Source: Mytilinidion resinicola (taxonomy: Eukaryota > Ascomycota > Dothideomycetes > Mytilinidiales > Mytilinidiaceae). Taken from it: a stretch of 64,000 nt of DNA. The stretch is from positions 2,748,479-2,812,478 of the forward strand of contig NW_022985439.1 in the NCBI RefSeq assembly GCF_010093595.1, written 5' to 3'. This document shows, piece after piece, positions 13,836 through 28,914 of this stretch. Under the pieces are notes generated by a model that had not been told where the DNA came from, did not search any database, and saw only the letters and a list, made by a program, of their open reading frames with translations. Made by a program: the position numbers and the translations under genes. Each line of letters starts with the position of its first letter. Position 1 is the stretch's first letter.

Positions 13836-16800
13836 TCAGCAGGGGATTGTCCTATCACATCTAGTTACTCTACCCCGGCCTTGACATTCTTTACAACACT
13901 TCAACTCTTGTTTATCCTCGAAAGCGAGCACCTCCTCGCAGGCGATGATACTCCTCTCGCGAACGAGTTTCCAGCCAATGTCGTGTTTCTGTAGAGCAGA
14001 ATGACACTGTGATTCGCAGGCCTCTTGGTGACGAAGTACTGTGTCAATATCGAACCTCCAGACATTTAAGTTGAATGCTCTGGCAACGTAGAAAATTGTG
14101 TCTTCTGACCAAACAGTATGTCTCGTCGGCATTAAGTCGTAAGGCAACCAGACAGTGGGTCTTCCGTTTATGTATATCCAATCGTCCCTCATTGTTACAC
14201 GCCGATACGTCTTACGCTGAGGCATTAATATGATTATTTGAGTGGTTTCTTCTGATGTCTCCAAAGTGGTACCGCCGGGGCCGAACGCTAGCTTCTCATG
14301 GTATGGAAGGTTGTAGCATGGTAGAGAAAGGATTGATGCTTTCTGCTCGCTTTCTTCAAGCCTGTAAACAAACACATCCCTGGACGACGAGTATGCCAGC
14401 AGTATGCTGTCTTCTGCCGCCGAGTAGTGCACAGCCACATGATCGCATTTCGTATCATGATAGACGACCTCGTGCTTTAGGGGCAAGCCATGCTCATCAA
14501 GCTGCCATACCTGCACTATGCCTAGGGTCGGCCGCCCTGCGATATTCATAACAGTGTCGAAATTCGTAGCGATCCACACTTTACCACTTTCTTCACTTGC
14601 GCTCATATCGATGAATCCCTCTCCGGCATGATATGTGAAATCTTTGGTCAAACTAACCTTGCTCATCAGCTGAAGGGGGTCAGCATCGAAATTCCATATT
14701 TCGATTGAGCAGTGCTTGAGCAATGCTAGACGGACTTTCTCCTCGCAGCCGTCTGAAAATGAAGTTACCGACACGTCCAAAACGCCTTCGGCCCGGATCC
14801 TTCGCAATAGCTTCGGCACACAGTGTACGGCAGAGCGGTCAAGTTGCCACAGTTCAACTGTTTCGCTGGATATGTTGTTTCCATTTAGAGTTGCCAGAAG
14901 AGCAGTTCCGTTTGTGACCGTTAGGTCAACCAGATGCGCTTCAAAGCGGCGGCTCCTTGATTTTTCAGCTTCTAGTCGTGCAAAAGTCCCCAAGTATGAG
15001 CGAACATTCTATATTTTGACTGGAGTGCTATGGTCACGCGGGCCTTAGGACCATAAAAGGGTTCTTCCATTTCCAGATATTAGACCCAGGCGAACAGGGC
15101 TGAAGATGAACTGAGTGTTGATGGAACATAACAAAATGAGCGAAGTCAAACTGACATCCCAAAGCTCTACACGCCCCTCACTGAGGGCCAAGGCAAGTAG
15201 CAAAATGCCGTCGAAAACACCAAGGGCTAAGGAGCATATCCCTGTCGGCTGGTCCACGCTTCTGGAGGTCTCGAATGACGGCAATTTGAGCGGCGCTTTC
15301 GATCGATCGCTGCGATCCCATAACTCCACCCGAGTTTTCCAAGTCCTTACAAGCGTGTTTTCATCAGGAGATAATGTTACATTCACAGGTTCGGAGTAGC
15401 GCCATGGATGTCGATCTAAGTTCCTGTCATGATATAGAAGATTGAAAGTCTGTTCAAGCCTTTCTGGATGTATTTTCCAGATACATATGTCTCTAGTTTT
15501 CATAATCGCGAGGAGATCATCATTCGCTGGGGCAAATTGTATATCCACCACCCTTTCAGGATGATCGCCAGTGGATGAGGGCGTCAAGAACTTTGTCGAG
15601 TTGACCCCCAGCTGATACAATAGCACACGTTTTCCGACCCCAACTGCGAGCATTTTACCGTCAGACGAAGACGTTGTGATGCCTAAGGGATTGGAACCAG
15701 GTGTGTTGCAGCCCTCGTGGTACTGGTCAAAATACTTCAAGGTAGTATCAAGTTGATATTCTAAGTGCTGCTCATACTGGAGAATCTGCGGACTTGCGGT
15801 TTTCCTCATCTGCAGTATCCGATAAGCTCCTCCCGCAATAGTGAGAATATTGCCATCAATTGAGAAATTGGCATATACACATCTTTGATCGTCGAATGGA
15901 CATATTTCTTGGATCAGAGACAGCGAGTAAAGATTGAAACGCCACAGGCAGATTATGTTGTGTATTGCATGCGTCACCAGCAAGGTGCCATCTGGTGAGC
16001 AAGCCAACAAATCTTGATTCTCAAGAGTTTGGAACAAATCGCCGTTCCACAACACATCTGGCTCGGGATATTACAATATCCAGGTGGGCAACAGGCTGCA
16101 GAACTGTTGTCGTACCAACCTTGATTTCGGAGCTCGAAGAAGAGCAGATATGGAAGCCTGTCGAGGCGCCAAATCGATGAGAGTTTCGTTTGCCAATACG
16201 AATTTCGCGGCATCAGAAATGAACGCATAGAATCGGACATGCTTGGGCTGTGGTTTTATTAACGACGTGAAATGATTTAAATGAACTGCTTCAACCTACC
16301 TCAACACGAGAGCGAATTTGGGAAATACCCCAAGATCCCTCCCAAACAGCAGACAGAAGCCCGAGGCATTCTAGCCAATGTAGAAGAGACCCTTGAAGAA
16401 AATTGTGAACAATATCAGTCTCGTGCAAAGCAAGACCGCTATCGCATAAGTGACCAATCCAGTCTCGACAGCAATATTGGATGTGGCTGGGCAGTGTTTC
16501 GTCGAGACACCGTTCCCTTGATTCTGGTGACAGCGGCCCGAGTGGCAGCCCTTTTCGCTGCTTGCAATGAAAATGGGTTTTCATCAGCGTGAGCATTCGT
16601 TCAAGTATATACTGATGGCCTTGTTCCTTGGCAATGCCAGTGGAGGCTTTTGAGAAAGGCTCTCTGCCGATGAAGCAGTGACCATGAGGCCCTGTCGAAA
16701 TTTGTGATGGCTTTAAAGAGCGAAGAATATGCGAAGAATCCAATCGTCGTGTTTCGATGTAGGTAGTCGGCCGCCACGAAAGCAAGGATAGCAAGAATGA

Positions 16801-18372
16801 GAGTCGTGCGCCAGTCGCAACCAGAATATTGGGAGTACCAGATTATGAATATGACTAGTAGTGTAATGATTTGGGAGCACCAGCGCCGTAAAAAGGGGCT
16901 TACTGCCAACATCAAATCTAGGGCCCAAAGCAGCATCTCCCGCGGCATGAGACTGTTCGAAAAACGGGAAGCACTAAGACCGAGAAGATGTTCTTTGAGT
17001 GAGAAGTGAACCAGCCTGTAAACACCAGCGTTGTGGTCTAAAGCAAGAAGATTTCCACATTGTCCTAGCCAAATGTCTATTTTGTCATCTGGTATATCGG
17101 CAAACGCTGCGATTTCGTTTGCTGATAAAGGTCGATGAGCTGAGCCAACACAGCGCAGGATCCTGGCAACCTGAGACCGGCTTCCTTGAGGTATACTTCC
17201 GAGGATGCGGTGGTAGATTGGGTCTAGTCCTTGCGGTAAGAAAGATTGAACAATATTTCGGTCCTTCAGGATACTGTCCATCAGATGTGGGGTGCCCTTT
17301 AGCACTGATATGGTCAATGACAACCAAAGGTACCTGCCTTCCGCGTGGGATACGAGAATGTGTACCAGCTTTTCTTGGTTCGATTGGCTAATGGATAAAC
17401 AATTTCGTAAATAGCTTCTTGCAAAGAGCTCAAGTTTCTTTTCTCGTTTTGTATTAGGTTGATCCAAGTCAATCTTCCGGGCGCATTCTACGGACTGACG
17501 GAGCCCCCGACTGACGATAATGGTACCAATCTTCTGGACCTAAGCTTTCGTCACTGTCGAGTATAGATGCTGCAGCTTTATTTGAAGGAAATTGATCGAT
17601 GCATCTTCGCATTCATCAGGCCCATCAAGCACGAGATACACCTGCCACTTGACGCGACCAAGCATCTTCACAACTAGCCCCCACATCGCTTCTTGGTTGT
17701 CATTGCTAAACAAGTCGTCTTTCCGTGCTTCGTGGTCTCTGAAAGCGGGAGGAACGTCCTCATAGAGGGATCCATCGGCCTCGGGAAGCTGCGCTAGGAG
17801 GCTTCGGACGACGAAAACACTAACAGTGCGTTCGATGTTGGCATAACTGCAGAAGAATGTAAGGACTAAAGGTCTGGGCAGTCCAATCAATGGCTGGCGA
17901 AGATGTTGACCTTTCAGATACTCTGTCAAATGTATAGAAAGAAACGTCTCGCCCTTGCCAGGACCTCCGCGGATCCAAAGAATCTTGTCGCTTTGGCGTC
18001 TCCATTCCCTGAAATCATCATCTTCTTCAATCCACCGGCAAGTACCGTTCAACACGTTACCCCGATCTGTAATGATGTTTTGATAGCCATGATTCGAATA
18101 AGGGTTTGTTTTGGAAAGAGCTTTACGACATCGCTCTTGATCAGTTTCCGCAGACTGGCCTATCCGTTGTCTGTCAGTCACAAGATGGCCCGATAATATT
18201 ACCGAGGGAATGGACGAGGAAGACTACCTGTTGGGCCGAAGTTGACCTGATTCTTTATAACATCTCTTCCTACGGGAGCGTTGACCTGGAGAGCGCTGCC
18301 CGCAGCCCGGTTATTCGAGACTTGATTTTCGGACAGGTTGATCCATCTTTTCCAAGCAAGAATTCGAGCGTA
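13836..18372 (-). pseudogene. Decayed NACHT-WD40 NLR (STAND) gene
   Basis: A fungal NOD-like receptor: an N-terminal motif, a NACHT NTPase that oligomerises, and a WD40 sensor. These control heterokaryon incompatibility or immune-like cell death. In order on the minus strand: a motif segment (18372-18241), NACHT with WIRGGPGKGET (Walker A, 17968-17945) and YLVLDGPDECED (Walker B), the winged-helix and linker phrases YRLVHFSLKEHLLG and LPSHIQYCCRDWIGHL, then WD40-like repeats from about 16050 to 13836. Lesions: an in-frame TAG at 17542-17540 with homology continuing in the same frame, the Walker A lysine replaced by Glu, frame changes near 16.6-16.8 kb and 16.05-16.25 kb, and stops between 15045 and 14995. 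It cannot make a full receptor. The first exon was not resolved. Confidence 0.8.
18241..18330 (-). other. Amyloid-like signalling motif at the NLR N-terminus (inferred)
   Basis: In the frame that opens at 18372 after a TTCAATTAG acceptor, the minus strand reads NNRAAGSALQVNAPVGRD and then VIKNQVNFG. It lies just before the NACHT domain. The core ALQxNxPxGxDxxK recurs in the protein encoded divergently at 20021-20083. Position and sharing match the prion-like motifs of fungal NLR-effector pairs. The amyloid nature is inference. Confidence 0.55.
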
Positions 18373-19375
18373 CTAATTGAACAAAGCTGCAAGTCGTTAT
18401 AGGAACTGATGATAGGGAAGAGTGCAACTGCGCGCTGTTTGCGCCGATACGTTTGTTGTCTGTTGCTGAGAAAAACGAAGACGGGCTTGGCTACAAGCGT
18501 ATAATTGGCTAGATGGACGATTCTCAGCCGCAAAATGCAAGGTCTATTCGCCAAAAGTATGCCAAGTACCGCGCTGCCTATATGAGAAAAGAAATACACA
18601 GTAAAAGGCAGATTCGCGGTTCGATCGGGGATTGGACAATTCTGATTGGTCTGCGAGTTGGGATACGAGCCTGAAATCGAGCCTGCATTTCTCAGCCGAA
18701 GAGTCGCGTTCGTAGTTATAATCAGACACTTAGGCAGCAAAGGCGAAACATGTACAGCCTCGTGTTCGTTTCAGCCAAGGCACAATGTTGGAGGCAATAT
18801 CATTGCCTATGTTATTGGTGACGATTCGAAATCGCACGCATGCACTACGCCACAGTGACCCAGAGACTGTGGTGTGGCCGCTGAGTCTTCTCGAAATATT
18901 TGTCATCATGGTATTATACGTGAATTCCTTTGTTTCAAAAGACAAGCTAACTATTCGTGGTAGGCTGAGATCTTTGCCACCGTAGCTGCCGCATCAGGAG
19001 TCCTTGAGCAGAGCATCAAATTGATTAGGGGCATTTGAGATGCTCGAAAAGAAAGCAAAAGCCACTTCGAAGACATTTCAGCATCCCTTGCTAGCCTCGA
19101 GATGACGAACGGAGACCTGAAAGTAGACCTGGAACTAATCGGAAAGATTGACACCTTGAAGACAGACCATGTGGGTAAATGTGCAGACAGCATCAAAAAG
19201 AGAAGCTAGGAGCTCCGTAAGCTCATCGACGACACCTCTTCAAAAGGAGGGGTTTGGCATAAATTTGTGTTTGGGAAAAGTGAAAGAAAAGAGTTTGACA
19301 AGACGATGAATGAGCTTCGTAACGCGGAGCAGTACTTGAACGGCGCACTGCTCGCAGTCAATGTTGGACTCTCAG

Positions 19376-19754
19376 CAGTGTGAGGAGTAAGCCGACGAAG
19401 CGAGTTAGAGGGGTATAGCTCGCAATCTATTCCTAATCGACCACTTAGCACTGTTTATTAGAGAGGGATTATGACCGGCCTGAACCATTTATATACTGCG
19501 CACAGACCTCTATTCACCCTGTGCCTAGAAAAGGGGTACCTGTAGGGGCCGTGGGGGGATTAAAACAACGCGTGAAAAGCCACAGAACGCGTCCTAAAAC
19601 GCGCATGCGGGGTCAATTCACTGGATTACAACCCGATCAATCCAGGTTGGACCTTGGCCTGGTCCTTGATTGGATTGTCCAGGTCCACTAACATGGTCGA
19701 TTGCAACGGATCGCTCACGTTGGTTTAGTTACGGTCGGCTTACTCCTCACGCTG
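19376..19754. mobile_element. hAT-like MITE inserted in the effector-like gene
   Basis: The left end CAGTGAGGAGTAAGCCGAC is matched inverted by GTCGGCTTACTCCTCACGCTG at the right end. Flanking octamers are actctcag (19368-19375) and gctctcag (19755-19762), an 8-bp target duplication with one mismatch. Termini starting CAG and the 8-bp duplication fit hAT. Removing the element and one octamer restores the interrupted frame. No transposase is present. Confidence 0.75.
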
Positions 19755-20020
19755 GCTCTCAGTGGATATTCACAAAAATAGAATCGTAGATAAACCTCTC
19801 GTTGTCAAGACGAACGCCGAGGTACAGAAAATCATGGGAAAAGAACGCGAACTGAACATCGCCAATTTAGTAAAAGACAAAATCCCCGAGGGTATGTCGT
19901 AACCTCGTCATTGCGCTGCAAGGCTAACAAAAGCTAGACAACGGGAAGGTCATTCTGACCCAGGAAGATCTCGACAAGTTGGCGGGAGCTACGAGTGGCC
20001 AAAAGATAACCACACGGAAC

Positions 20021-20170
20021 AATACTACGAGTCACCAAGCACTCCAATTCAATGGGCCAATCGGAACCGATCTGTGGAAAGACCTAGATCAGCTTGACAT
20101 CCATGACAATACGGCAGAAACCCAATCTCGACAATTCAACTACACCCAGACAATGGACGTATATCACGAT
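20021..20170 (+). repeat. Two imperfect 21-residue repeats in the effector-like protein
   Basis: Repeat 1 (20021-20083) reads NTTSHQALQFNGPIGTDLWK with a final D. Repeat 2 (20108-20170) reads NTAETQSRQFNYTQTMDVYH with a final D. They match at N, T, Q, QFN and two D positions, with similar V/L and Y/W, at a spacing of 29 residues. A two-repeat layout is also found in HET-s-type amyloid motifs, though the sequences differ. Confidence 0.55.
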
Positions 20171-20266
20171 CAGATGGCCAGGGCTCCAAAGCTTTTGGAC
20201 TATAGTCTCCTCGCACTTCTCGTAGCTGCTGTTGCTGCACTATACATCCTCTACGGCGGCAAGTAA

Positions 20267-25558: not shown

Positions 25559-28500
25559 ATGAGGAGTTCCAGTCTCGTGAGGGTAAGTTAGTCTGGTTAT
25601 CATCTATACAATTCTTGCTAATAGAATGTAGGGGCCACCTACCCGGAACATCTGCATCTTTTGCGCGAATCGAGGTGGCTTTGATGGCATCATCCCATCA
25701 ATTCGCCGCTCAACCGTAGCTCAACAGCGCAACCTTCATTACTCTAATAACGCGCCCCAGTCGGCCTCTGCTACACGAGTACGACATGATGATCATCAGC
25801 AACCTCCGGCTGCCTCGAGCGATGGATGGGGCCAATCGTTCGGCGCGGCTGTAACACGCTTACCCAGACTGACTGCGGAGGAGCAGAGGATAAGGGACAA
25901 TCTACAGAAGCAACGTCAGGGACAGGCGGTACAGCAGGCTGCTCTTGCAGCCAGGGGCGCACCAGCTCCGCAACGGCAGGAAAGAGGCGGGCTTGGACTG
26001 AGTACTCCTCTAGGCGGACTGACACGGGAAGAGCAGAGGATCAGGGATAACCTCCAGAGGCAGCGGGCACAGAATGCATCAAGGACACCGCAGAATACAA
26101 ACAGTTCGCAAGGACACGATAGAAGGGGATTCGGACTGATCAGCCCCGCTCGAAGAGATCCAGTTAAACCGCCATCGAGGCCCCCGGGCGGACGATTGAC
26201 TGTCCGCCGAATTGACTCAACCCACTCTCATGGCCCTCCCACGCCAGAAGCATTCCCGATGGATCCAGAAGGAGCGTTTAATTGGACACATTTGAGAAAG
26301 AGGGGCGAAAGTGGTCAGGCTTCTGGCAGTCGAGATGGATCACAAGCTTCAAATTTCAGGAGAAGCGAGTCTACGGCTCCTAGCAGAGGCTTGGGAGACT
26401 TCCTAAAGAGTATGGAAAAGAACCCTCAGCGCAGCGAGCCGCGACGGCAGAGAGATGATAGCGAACTGGAACGGTTGCTAGGGGGGTTCACGCAGGCGAA
26501 TAACCAGCCGGACAAACCACAATCAAGACCGTATGTGCCCTTGGCAAGGGAATCCATAGGAGGTTTCAAATGCTTCAGATGTGGGGAGCCAGGACATAGA
26601 GGAAGTGACTGCCCCACCGTACAGCAGTTTGTACCCGTGTCACGTTTGAAGGATGTTGGCCAAAATGCACCACTCCAAGAAGGGCGCAACGACGGGCTAT
26701 CGGGCGTCAAGGAACGAAATTCAACGGCTTCGGTAGAGGCCTCGAGCATTGTATCCGCCACTGATCATTACGATGCAGAGAAGCGAGCTGCAGCTGAAGC
26801 ATGGCGGCGACGCTCTGCGCGTTTCACCCAGAAAGAGGAAGAGCCGGCATATGAGAAGGATCGTCGTAAGAAGGGAATGCGGATCGCGCGATCATCGGCC
26901 CAGGAGGACGAAATGGACGAAGGCATGGCTAGGGCAGAACGCAAACGACGAAGGAAAGAGGAGAAGAGGAGAGCTCAGTTGACAAAGACCGAGCCAACTC
27001 CAATCCAGCTTCCAGAGTACATCAGCGTGACGAATCTTGCCTCCGCACTGAAGATTCGAGTGGAAGACTTCGTCCATAAACTCGAAGAACTCGGGTTCGA
27101 GGACATCCAAAATGATCACATTCTCAACGCGGAGAACTCGGCTCTGGTGGCTATGGAATACAACTTTGAGCCCATAATACAAACCGCGGAAGAGGACATC
27201 GACTTGCATCCTGCTCCTTTACCTGAGGACGTTTCCATACTACCGGCTAGACCTCCGGTCGTTACTATCATGGGTCATGTTGATCACGGCAAGACTACTA
27301 TCCTGGACTTCTTGCGAAACTCGAGTGTAGCCGCATCTGAATTCGGTGGCATCACCCAGCACATCGGCGCTTTCAGCGTACCTCTGGAATCTGGAAAGAC
27401 CATCACGTTCTTAGACACGCCTGGTCACGCCGCCTTCCTATCTATGCGACAGCGCGGAGCAAATGTAACTGATATTGTCATCCTCGTCGTCGCCGCCGAC
27501 GACTCCGTCAAGCCCCAGACCATCGAAGCGATCAAGCACGCCCAATCCGCCAACGTCCCCATCATCGTCGCCATCAACAAAATCGACAAAGAAGAAGCGA
27601 ACCCAGACCGCGTGAAGCAAGACCTCGCCCGCCACGGCGTCGACGTCGAAGACTTCGGCGGCGAAACCCAGGTCGTCTGCGTCAGCGGCAAGACAGGCAC
27701 AGGCATGCCCGAGCTCGAAGAATCCATCGTCACCCTCTCCGAGATCCTCGACCACCGCGCCGACCCCGAAGGCCCCGTGGAGGGCTGGGTCCTCGAAGGC
27801 ACAACCCGCAAGTCCGGCCGCGTCGCCACCCTCCTCATCCGCCGCGGCACACTCCATGTTGGCGACATCCTCGTCGCCGGCACGACCTGGGCGCGCGTCC
27901 GCACGCTCAGGAACGAAGCCGGCGCGCACATCGACGCCGTCAGCCCCGGCATGCCCGTCGAAGTCGACGGCTGGCGCGAGCAGCCCCTCGCCGGCGACGA
28001 GGTCCTCCAGGCCCCTGACGAGCAGAAAGCGTCCGCTGTCTCTGAGTTCCGCGCAGATGCTGAGGAGCGCATCCGCCTCGCGAAGGACATGGAAGCTATC
28101 AACGAAGCCCGCCGATTTGAGACCGAGCGCGTAGAGAAAGAGAAGGCTGCCGCCGCCGCTGCCGCCGAAGCCACAGGCGAGGCCGACCCGGCCGCTGTGG
28201 AGGAGGTGGTCGCGAAAGCCTCCGGGCCCGAAATCATCCCCTTCATCGTCAAAGCCGACGTCTCGGGCTCCGTCGAGGCCGTCACCGACTCCATCGCGCC
28301 TCTCGGCAACGCGGAGGTCGCTTGCTCGATCCTGCGCTCGGGCGTGGGCCCACCGTCCGAGTTCGACGTGCAGCATGCTGCGGCTGCGAAGGGGCACATC
28401 ATCAACTTCAACACGGCGATCCCGCCGCAGATTGCGGCGCTGGCGGAGGAGAAGGGGGTGAAAATTCTAGACTCGAATATTATTTATCGGCTGTCTGAGG

Positions 28501-28914
28501 ACGTGCGGGCGCTGTTGAGCGAGCGGCTGCCGCCGAGCGTGGTCAAGCGCGTGACGGGGGAGGCGGAGGTGGCGCAGATGTTTAGCATTACGCTCGCGGG
28601 GCGGAAGAAGATGGTTATTGCCGGGAGTAAGGTGCGGAATGGGGTCATTAAGAAGGGGGCGCTTGTGAGGGTGGTTAGGGGGGAGGAGAATGTGTATGAA
28701 GGTGAGTTTGTTCTTTGTTTCTGACAAAAATGGGGGTTGGGGCGACTGCTAATGGTGATTAGGTACGCTGTCGTCGCTGAAGAACGTCAAGAAGGATGTG
28801 CTCGAGATGCCGAAGAATAGCGAGTGCGGCATTGGGTTTGAGGACTGGGAGGGGTTCGAGGTCGGGGATAAGGTGCAGTGCTATGAGGAGACGAGGGAGA
28901 AGAGGTACTTGTAA
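25559..28914 (+). CDS. IFM1: Mitochondrial translation initiation factor IF-2
   Basis: A GTPase that brings formyl-methionyl-tRNA to the mitochondrial ribosome. Exon 1 (25559-25582, MRSSSLVR) begins a basic targeting peptide; exon 2 is 25632-28701 and exon 3 is 28763-28914, about 1080 residues. Two copies of EEQRIRDNLQ(K/R)QR lie in the disordered N-terminal region. A CCHC zinc knuckle (26571-26612, CFRCGEPGHRGSDC) follows, then the IF2_N fold (ISVTNLASALKIRVEDFVHK). The G domain has all boxes: GHVDHGKT, GITQHIGAF, DTPGHAAF and NKID. Domains II-IV include KADVSGSVEAV. I chose the start because it makes a mitochondrial presequence and joins the long open frame in phase. The zinc knuckle is unusual for IF-2. 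Confidence 0.92.

Follow-up and report, generated by a model that had tools for sequence, protein, structure and literature searches.

A decayed, divergent NLR and candidate effector gene pair with a shared short motif and predicted membrane segments in Mytilinidion resinicola

Introduction

Fungal NOD-like receptors (NLRs) can be paired with effectors through a short motif present in both proteins. The classes with paired effectors named in the relevant section of PMC9815663 are HRAM, PP, sigma and PUASM, together with a PNP-related motif found in four pairs, and the same section describes two unassigned ascomycete NLR N-terminal classes without a paired effector, NLR34 and NLR19 (Tuber), with 28- and 27-residue profiles. 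The described systems closest to the locus reported here are NWD2/HET-S and PNT1/HELLP. A domain fused to the NLR itself is a known alternative to a separate effector (discussed in part of PMC3321046). Here we describe two adjoining pseudogenes, a minus-strand NLR and a divergent plus-strand gene that is its candidate effector (hereafter the effector), with motif segments 1770 bp apart. They lie in a stretch of 64,000 nucleotides of Mytilinidion resinicola (NW_022985439.1, our coordinates G000:C3:2748479-2812478; hereafter the window), from a genome assembly of 47.1 Mb in 44 contigs. A sequence-only reading of the window had taken the two genes for a further NLR-effector pair with a motif that it could not assign to a named class, an interpretation that our analysis partly supports.

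The Shared Motif

One segment of similar sequence lies just ahead of the NACHT domain of the NLR and another ahead of a C-terminal hydrophobic anchor in the effector, where the sequence-only reading had placed them. The motif occurs once in the NLR (r0) and, as that reading had not recognized, twice in the effector (r1 and r2):

18315 (start), minus strand, NLR motif segment, NNRAAGSALQVNAPVGRDVIKN
20018 (start), plus strand, effector motif segment, NNTTSHQALQFNGPIGTDLWKD
18253..18315, minus strand, NLR motif r0, NNRAAGSALQVNAPVGRDVIK
20018..20080, plus strand, effector motif repeat r1, NNTTSHQALQFNGPIGTDLWK
20105..20167, plus strand, effector motif repeat r2, 29 residues past r1, DNTAETQSRQFNYTQTMDVYH

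The similarity of r0 and r1 exceeds chance. Aligned without gaps, the NLR and effector segments are identical at 10/22 residues (N, N, A, L, Q, N, P, G, D and K), the matches previously claimed, and their Smith-Waterman score of 53 was reached by 0/5000 shuffles (extreme-value p ~1e-5). The effector itself aside, the NLR segment is the top match to the effector motif among the 10,644 six-frame 49-residue segments of the window. Scores of r0 against three effector homologs from other genomes are 59 (P0001), 58 (P0002) and 51 (P0003), each with 0/5000 shuffles as high. The homologs read ALQFNAPIG and the NLR reads ALQVNAPVG; the second A of ALQFNA is Gly in the window effector (NGPIG) and Ala in all three homologs, and the effector family is therefore nearer to the NAPVG of the NLR than the local copy is.

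At the scale of the 47 Mb genome, the codon-level pattern ALQxN..xG, which relaxes the motif at L and P, has eight matches (two for a reversed-pattern control). Two of the eight are the present pair, 1770 bp apart, and 0.002 such pairs would be expected if the eight fell randomly. On a BLOSUM-averaged profile built from five motif rows, the NLR segment scores 62.4, a value inflated by the inclusion of the NLR's own row. Among the 600,500 segments of the window and 70 further genome loci (loci overlapping), no unrelated one exceeds 30.0, a value that comes from a locus chosen for its fit to the short ALQxN..xG pattern, and the reversed-DNA control reaches 24.6.

The Effector Pseudogene and Its Homologs

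The effector is read in three protein pieces, two of them separated by a miniature inverted-repeat transposable element (MITE):

18964..19380, plus strand, N-terminal helical domain with two in-frame stops, its last residues overlapping the insert border; 43% identical to P0002 residues 2-124
19376..19754, plus strand, MITE of 379 bp with 21-nt inverted ends and a flanking duplication matching at 7/8 bp (by eye)
19756..19896, plus strand, linker segment past the insert; 55% identical to P0002 residues 122-168
19928..20266, plus strand, C-terminal frame of 112 aa plus stop, shifted in frame relative to the linker piece; relatives P0001-P0003
20195..20251, plus strand, C-terminal hydrophobic tail, a predicted membrane anchor (Kyte-Doolittle 19-residue mean 2.19)

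The MITE, which from its ends we take to be hAT-like, has 12 genome matches including itself, and five other copies are full-length at 69-90% identity. Both partners had been described as broken, and they are: stops, frame changes and the MITE insertion leave the two genes dead here.

The C-terminal half of the effector as query returned P0001 (220 aa), one protein among 105 candidates, and P0001 as query returned P0002 (295 aa) and P0003 (135 aa), three proteins including itself among 372 candidates. The sole named homolog is P0003, BU16DRAFT_556120 of the dothideomycete Lophium mytilinum, and the uninterrupted P0002 matches all three protein pieces of the window effector. This homolog set is biased to motif carriers by its first query, the half with the motif; within it, the motif is present twice, 29 residues apart and followed by a hydrophobic tail, in 3/3 homologs, and none lacks it, a lack that the sequence-only reading had named as refuting. 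The first search also missed P0002 despite 12 five-residue words common to the query, and a no-match outcome there therefore means little.

Across the four effectors, the motif block of 58 residues is 76-83% identical in pairwise comparison (6 pairs), the tail 54-73% (6 pairs) and the N-terminal domain pieces 35-44% (4 comparisons). In 4/4 effectors the internal repeat comes out best at an offset of 29, with 5, 6, 31 and 0 of 300 shuffles as good. The C-terminus is hydrophobic in all four, the 19-residue Kyte-Doolittle values of the three homologous tails being 1.66-2.58.

Neither the effector pieces nor P0001-P0003 match any Pfam family above cut-off. A HeLo-like label for the N-terminal domain was dropped because no HeLo-family Pfam model matched; against the PF17111 domain of a PP-type effector encoded elsewhere in the genome (see below), the window piece scores 23 (2616/3000 shuffles) and P0002 36 (139/3000). 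We ascribe a weak match to CREPT (E 1.5e-4, below cut-off) to helical composition. The structure prediction for P0002 (mean predicted local distance difference test score, pLDDT, 42.5) was too poor for use and gave no Foldseek match with E below 0.6, and sequence searches of the PDB gave no useful match. Neither the C-terminal nor the N-terminal piece has a second copy in its own genome (1 match each, itself), all three genome matches of P0002 fall at the present locus, and scans of the genome_contigs and viral_contigs collections found no relative.

The Receptor Pseudogene and Its Relatives

The NLR pseudogene reads in the order motif exon, NPHP3_N/NACHT, WD40:

18228..18372, minus strand, open stretch of the motif exon (frame reading), with donor CAG/GTAGT and no ATG in frame
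18160..18227, minus strand, predicted 68-nt intron from motif exon to NACHT exon (GT...AG, branch-like ACTGAC; placed by eye)
17543..18159, minus strand, exon with NPHP3_N/NACHT (domain 17579-18046; NPHP3_N E 4e-25)
17540-17542, minus strand, in-frame stop ending the NACHT exon
16604..17539, minus strand, NLR frame continued past the NACHT core, hairpin included
16757..16882, minus strand, predicted two-helix membrane hairpin (helices 16832-16882 and 16757-16807; from hydropathy)
13839..16070, minus strand, WD40-repeat region in two frames (15048-16070 and 13839-15008)

Matches to WD40 families on 15048-16070 are below the family cut-offs (best E 4e-7); 13839-15008 has no WD40 family match and is assigned to the region by position. 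Comparison by eye with the relatives P0004 and P0005 places a frame change near 16600. On its N-terminal side the NLR has a short motif ahead of NACHT and no effector domain; a further exon may lie upstream. The motif exon contains three Q-V-like steps (NQVSN, LQVNA and NQVNF; by eye), 12-13 residues apart, which could be successive beta-arcs. The separate motif exon and the predicted hairpin, like the doubling of the effector motif and the nature of the insert, go beyond the sequence-only reading.

A protein search with the NLR found three proteins among 1019 candidates: P0004, P0005 and the weak match P0006 (E 3e-4, 29%). P0004 (675 aa, Joint Genome Institute, JGI) aligns with the read-through frame of the window NLR at 52% identity over 511 aa and begins within about 3 residues of the predicted exon boundary, on the acceptor side (VETDEDRCC against QSAETDQERC); its structure prediction (mean pLDDT 40.8) was too poor for use. 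P0005 (883 aa, JGI metagenome) is 49% identical to P0004 in the NACHT part and has an N-terminal PNP_UDP-like domain (PF01048, E 1.4e-4, 21.8 bits against a cut-off of 25.1), its source name being nucleoside phosphorylase. Close receptors display domain fusion, as in P0005, as well as probable motif pairing.

The hairpin segment is common to the window NLR and P0004, and the alignment has a gap at the same place in P0005. Hydropathy was computed in windows of 19 residues at a threshold of 1.6 and also of 17 residues. With 17 residues both stretches pass in both proteins (means 1.81 and 1.71 in the window NLR, 2.51 and 1.81 in P0004); with 19 residues both helices pass in P0004 and the first only in the window NLR. 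P0005 has another hydrophobic segment in the shared NLR part (669). For background we read 30 NLR loci of the same genome (L033-L062). All but one yielded a frame, that of L053 coming from the wrong strand, and of the 29 frames 13 are open for at least 400 residues and hence judgeable: a hydrophobic segment beyond residue 250 is present in 3/29 and two separate ones in 0/29. The top-scoring NACHT paralog of the window NLR in its own genome is 34% identical.

The NLR repertoire of the genome is large, with 121 NPHP3_N and 59 NACHT model matches (overlapping and counted per exon, hence not gene numbers). Elsewhere in the window, a long open frame on the plus strand (25632-28724) reads by eye like mitochondrial translation initiation factor IF-2.

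Comparison with Described Motif Classes

The genome supplies its own comparison in the form of a PP-type pair. The Pfam model Ses_B, for the PP motif, has 7 genome matches at E<=10, two of which are divergent and ~1.1 kb apart on another contig, C15, with E 0.003 (over cut-off) and E 0.39 (under):

G000:C15:1107111-1108261, divergent, PP-type pair, within locus L071 (G000:C15:1104800-1110800)

The NLR of this pair has TPR repeats, an NB-ARC match just under cut-off and a PP-like segment ahead, and its effector has PF17111 (E 5.6e-15) and a C-terminal PP motif. The two motifs score 60 (0/3000 shuffles), and the same kind of test gives 53-59 for the present pair, so that in strength the present match is roughly on a par with a recognized pair of the same layout.

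None of the tested classes accommodates the present motif. Ses_B (PF17046) reports the C15 pair and gives no match to the present pair at E<=10, and NACHT_sigma (PF17106) has no match in the present pair or anywhere in the genome, which holds no sigma pair as a positive control. The PUASM pattern FxGxGxQxxGxGxF has 0 occurrences in the window and the 70 loci, and the effector is not a PNP_UDP protein. The HRAM signature, as given in the relevant part of PMC4518210, has G at position 19 and hydrophobics at 5, 8, 10, 16 and 18, with R/K preferred at 15; with the sole G of P0001 r1 set at 19, positions 5, 8, 10 and 15 are N, R, Q and N (by eye), and the signature fails.

In its architecture the locus resembles several of these systems. 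As in NWD2/HET-S and the other HRAM pairs, an adjacent NACHT/WD40 NLR with one N-terminal motif copy accompanies an effector with two; unlike them, the present pair lacks the HRAM positional signature and has a repeat period of 29, a membrane helix past the effector motif, an effector domain not recognized as HeLo and a predicted membrane hairpin in the NLR. With PNT1/HELLP and the PP-motif pairs (RHIM-like, the C15 pair included) it shares a divergent NLR and small helical effector, one short shared motif and a similar match score, whereas the PP motif is the one that Ses_B recognizes and, in the C15 pair, the effector has PF17111 and ends in the motif and the NLR is of NB-ARC/TPR type. The sesA/sesB/het-eN system (sigma) has in common with it a QFN core triplet (by eye) and a short motif present in both effector and NLR, but sigma consists of three tandem units (AAA, ABA or ABB). 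The PUASM pairs, from the account in part of PMC9815663, are likewise short-motif NLR/effector pairings in Pezizomycotina, and differ in their PNP_UDP effector.

Five exact motif strings had no match in the literature searched. The present motif may be that of NLR34 or NLR19. Of the earlier proposal of a pair with an unassigned motif, the divergent arrangement, the homologous motif, the C-terminal helix and the silence of Ses_B and NACHT_sigma thus stand, and with these two classes in print the class need not be new.

Discussion

The two pseudogenes are adjacent and divergent, r0 resembles r1, the motif is doubled in the effector, the motif block is conserved and both partners have hydrophobic segments. 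We consider that the locus is probably a decayed two-gene immune signaling unit of the NWD2/HET-S kind, a receptor-to-effector templating pair with a motif outside the tested classes and membrane-tethered partners. Under the mechanism we propose, binding of a ligand by the WD40 domain would cause the receptor to oligomerize, and the clustered r0 segments would nucleate a cross-beta (amyloid-like) assembly. This assembly would template r1/r2 of effectors already present in that same membrane as the receptor and so drive the effector helical domain to damage the membrane, killing the cell. Passages of PMC5485727, PMC7889193 and PMC7885112 set out such steps for HET-S/NWD2 and HELLP/PNT1.

Several observations sit uneasily with a templating pair. 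A membrane segment follows the effector motif in 4/4 proteins, whereas described effectors carry the motif as a C-terminal extension, and the effector helical domain has no HeLo-family Pfam match, whereas the PP control matches PF17111. P0002 by itself gives a weak repeat signal (31/300 shuffles), and r2 is without the P and G of r1. The motif-bearing NLR N-terminus comes from the window alone, the closest relative, P0004, starting just past the position of the motif exon; P0005, which has no hairpin, has its own hydrophobic segment near its end (852). There is also no further copy of the motif in the window and the 70 loci, which cover only part of the NLRs of this genome. Both genes are dead as well. 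Finally, several charged residues lie inside the motif block, and AlphaFold2 places a helix over r2 in the P0002 model (at very low confidence). These last two points also favor a real NLR/effector unit whose motif would act as a homotypic interface, folded or helical, instead of an amyloid, as does the length of the conserved block, the published fungal motifs being relatively charge-poor and of 17-27 residues in the relevant part of PMC3321046. We think this unlikely, though worth keeping in view, since the effector has two motif copies and the NLR one, as in the HRAM pairs described in part of PMC4518210, and N/Q and hydrophobic residues surround each QxN core.

It is similarly rather doubtful that a published class (PP/RHIM-like, sigma, or an unassigned one such as NLR34) includes the motif as a far-diverged member, in which case the class would not be new. 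With A in place of both G residues, ALQFNA is reminiscent of the PP core GLQLxG, QFN is present in the sigma A unit (both by eye; sigma consensus from part of PMC3321046), and the window effector scores 39 against the PP effector of its own genome (0/3000 shuffles). However, kinship with PP does not extend to P0001, which scores 23 against the same effector (697/3000), or to r0, which scores 22 (1119/3000), and neither Ses_B, which finds the genome's PP pair, nor NACHT_sigma matches the present motif. An origin of r0 and r1 by past fusion or split of one gene, without signaling between the products, would fit the fused N-terminal domain of the same-clade NLR P0005; we hold it to be improbable, since conservation in the effector is highest in the motif block, which speaks for function, and the doubling is on the effector side only. 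The pair consists of two broken genes only and the motif is short, as chance resemblance in decayed DNA would have it, but the shuffle tests, the rank among the window's segments, the expected number of such pairs and the matching homologs from other genomes make this explanation very improbable.

Returning to the templating pair, the predicted membrane anchors on both partners suggest that templating would take place on the membrane. We therefore raise, more tentatively, the possibility of a membrane-tethered amyloid signalosome with a motif class of its own. Both the hairpin of the NLR and the tail of the effector would be anchored in the target membrane, and templating would proceed there without recruitment of a soluble effector. 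The word "transmembrane" is absent from the main texts of PMC4986451, PMC12258605 and PMC9815663, and the fungal-effector passages found in PMC5485727, PMC7885112 and PMC10197012 concern the N-terminal helix of HeLo. By title, nothing in the literature searched dealt with membrane-anchored NLRs or effectors, and such an NLR may still be in print.

P0001-P0003 and P0004 offer uninterrupted proteins for study, and the PP pair in the same genome provides a natural comparison and a built-in check on seeding specificity. If the motif is that of NLR34 or NLR19, the present pair would supply the missing effector of that class. If the membrane-tethered arrangement is correct, this would be a further class with both partners in the membrane, in which templated assembly can replace, not drive, membrane recruitment.

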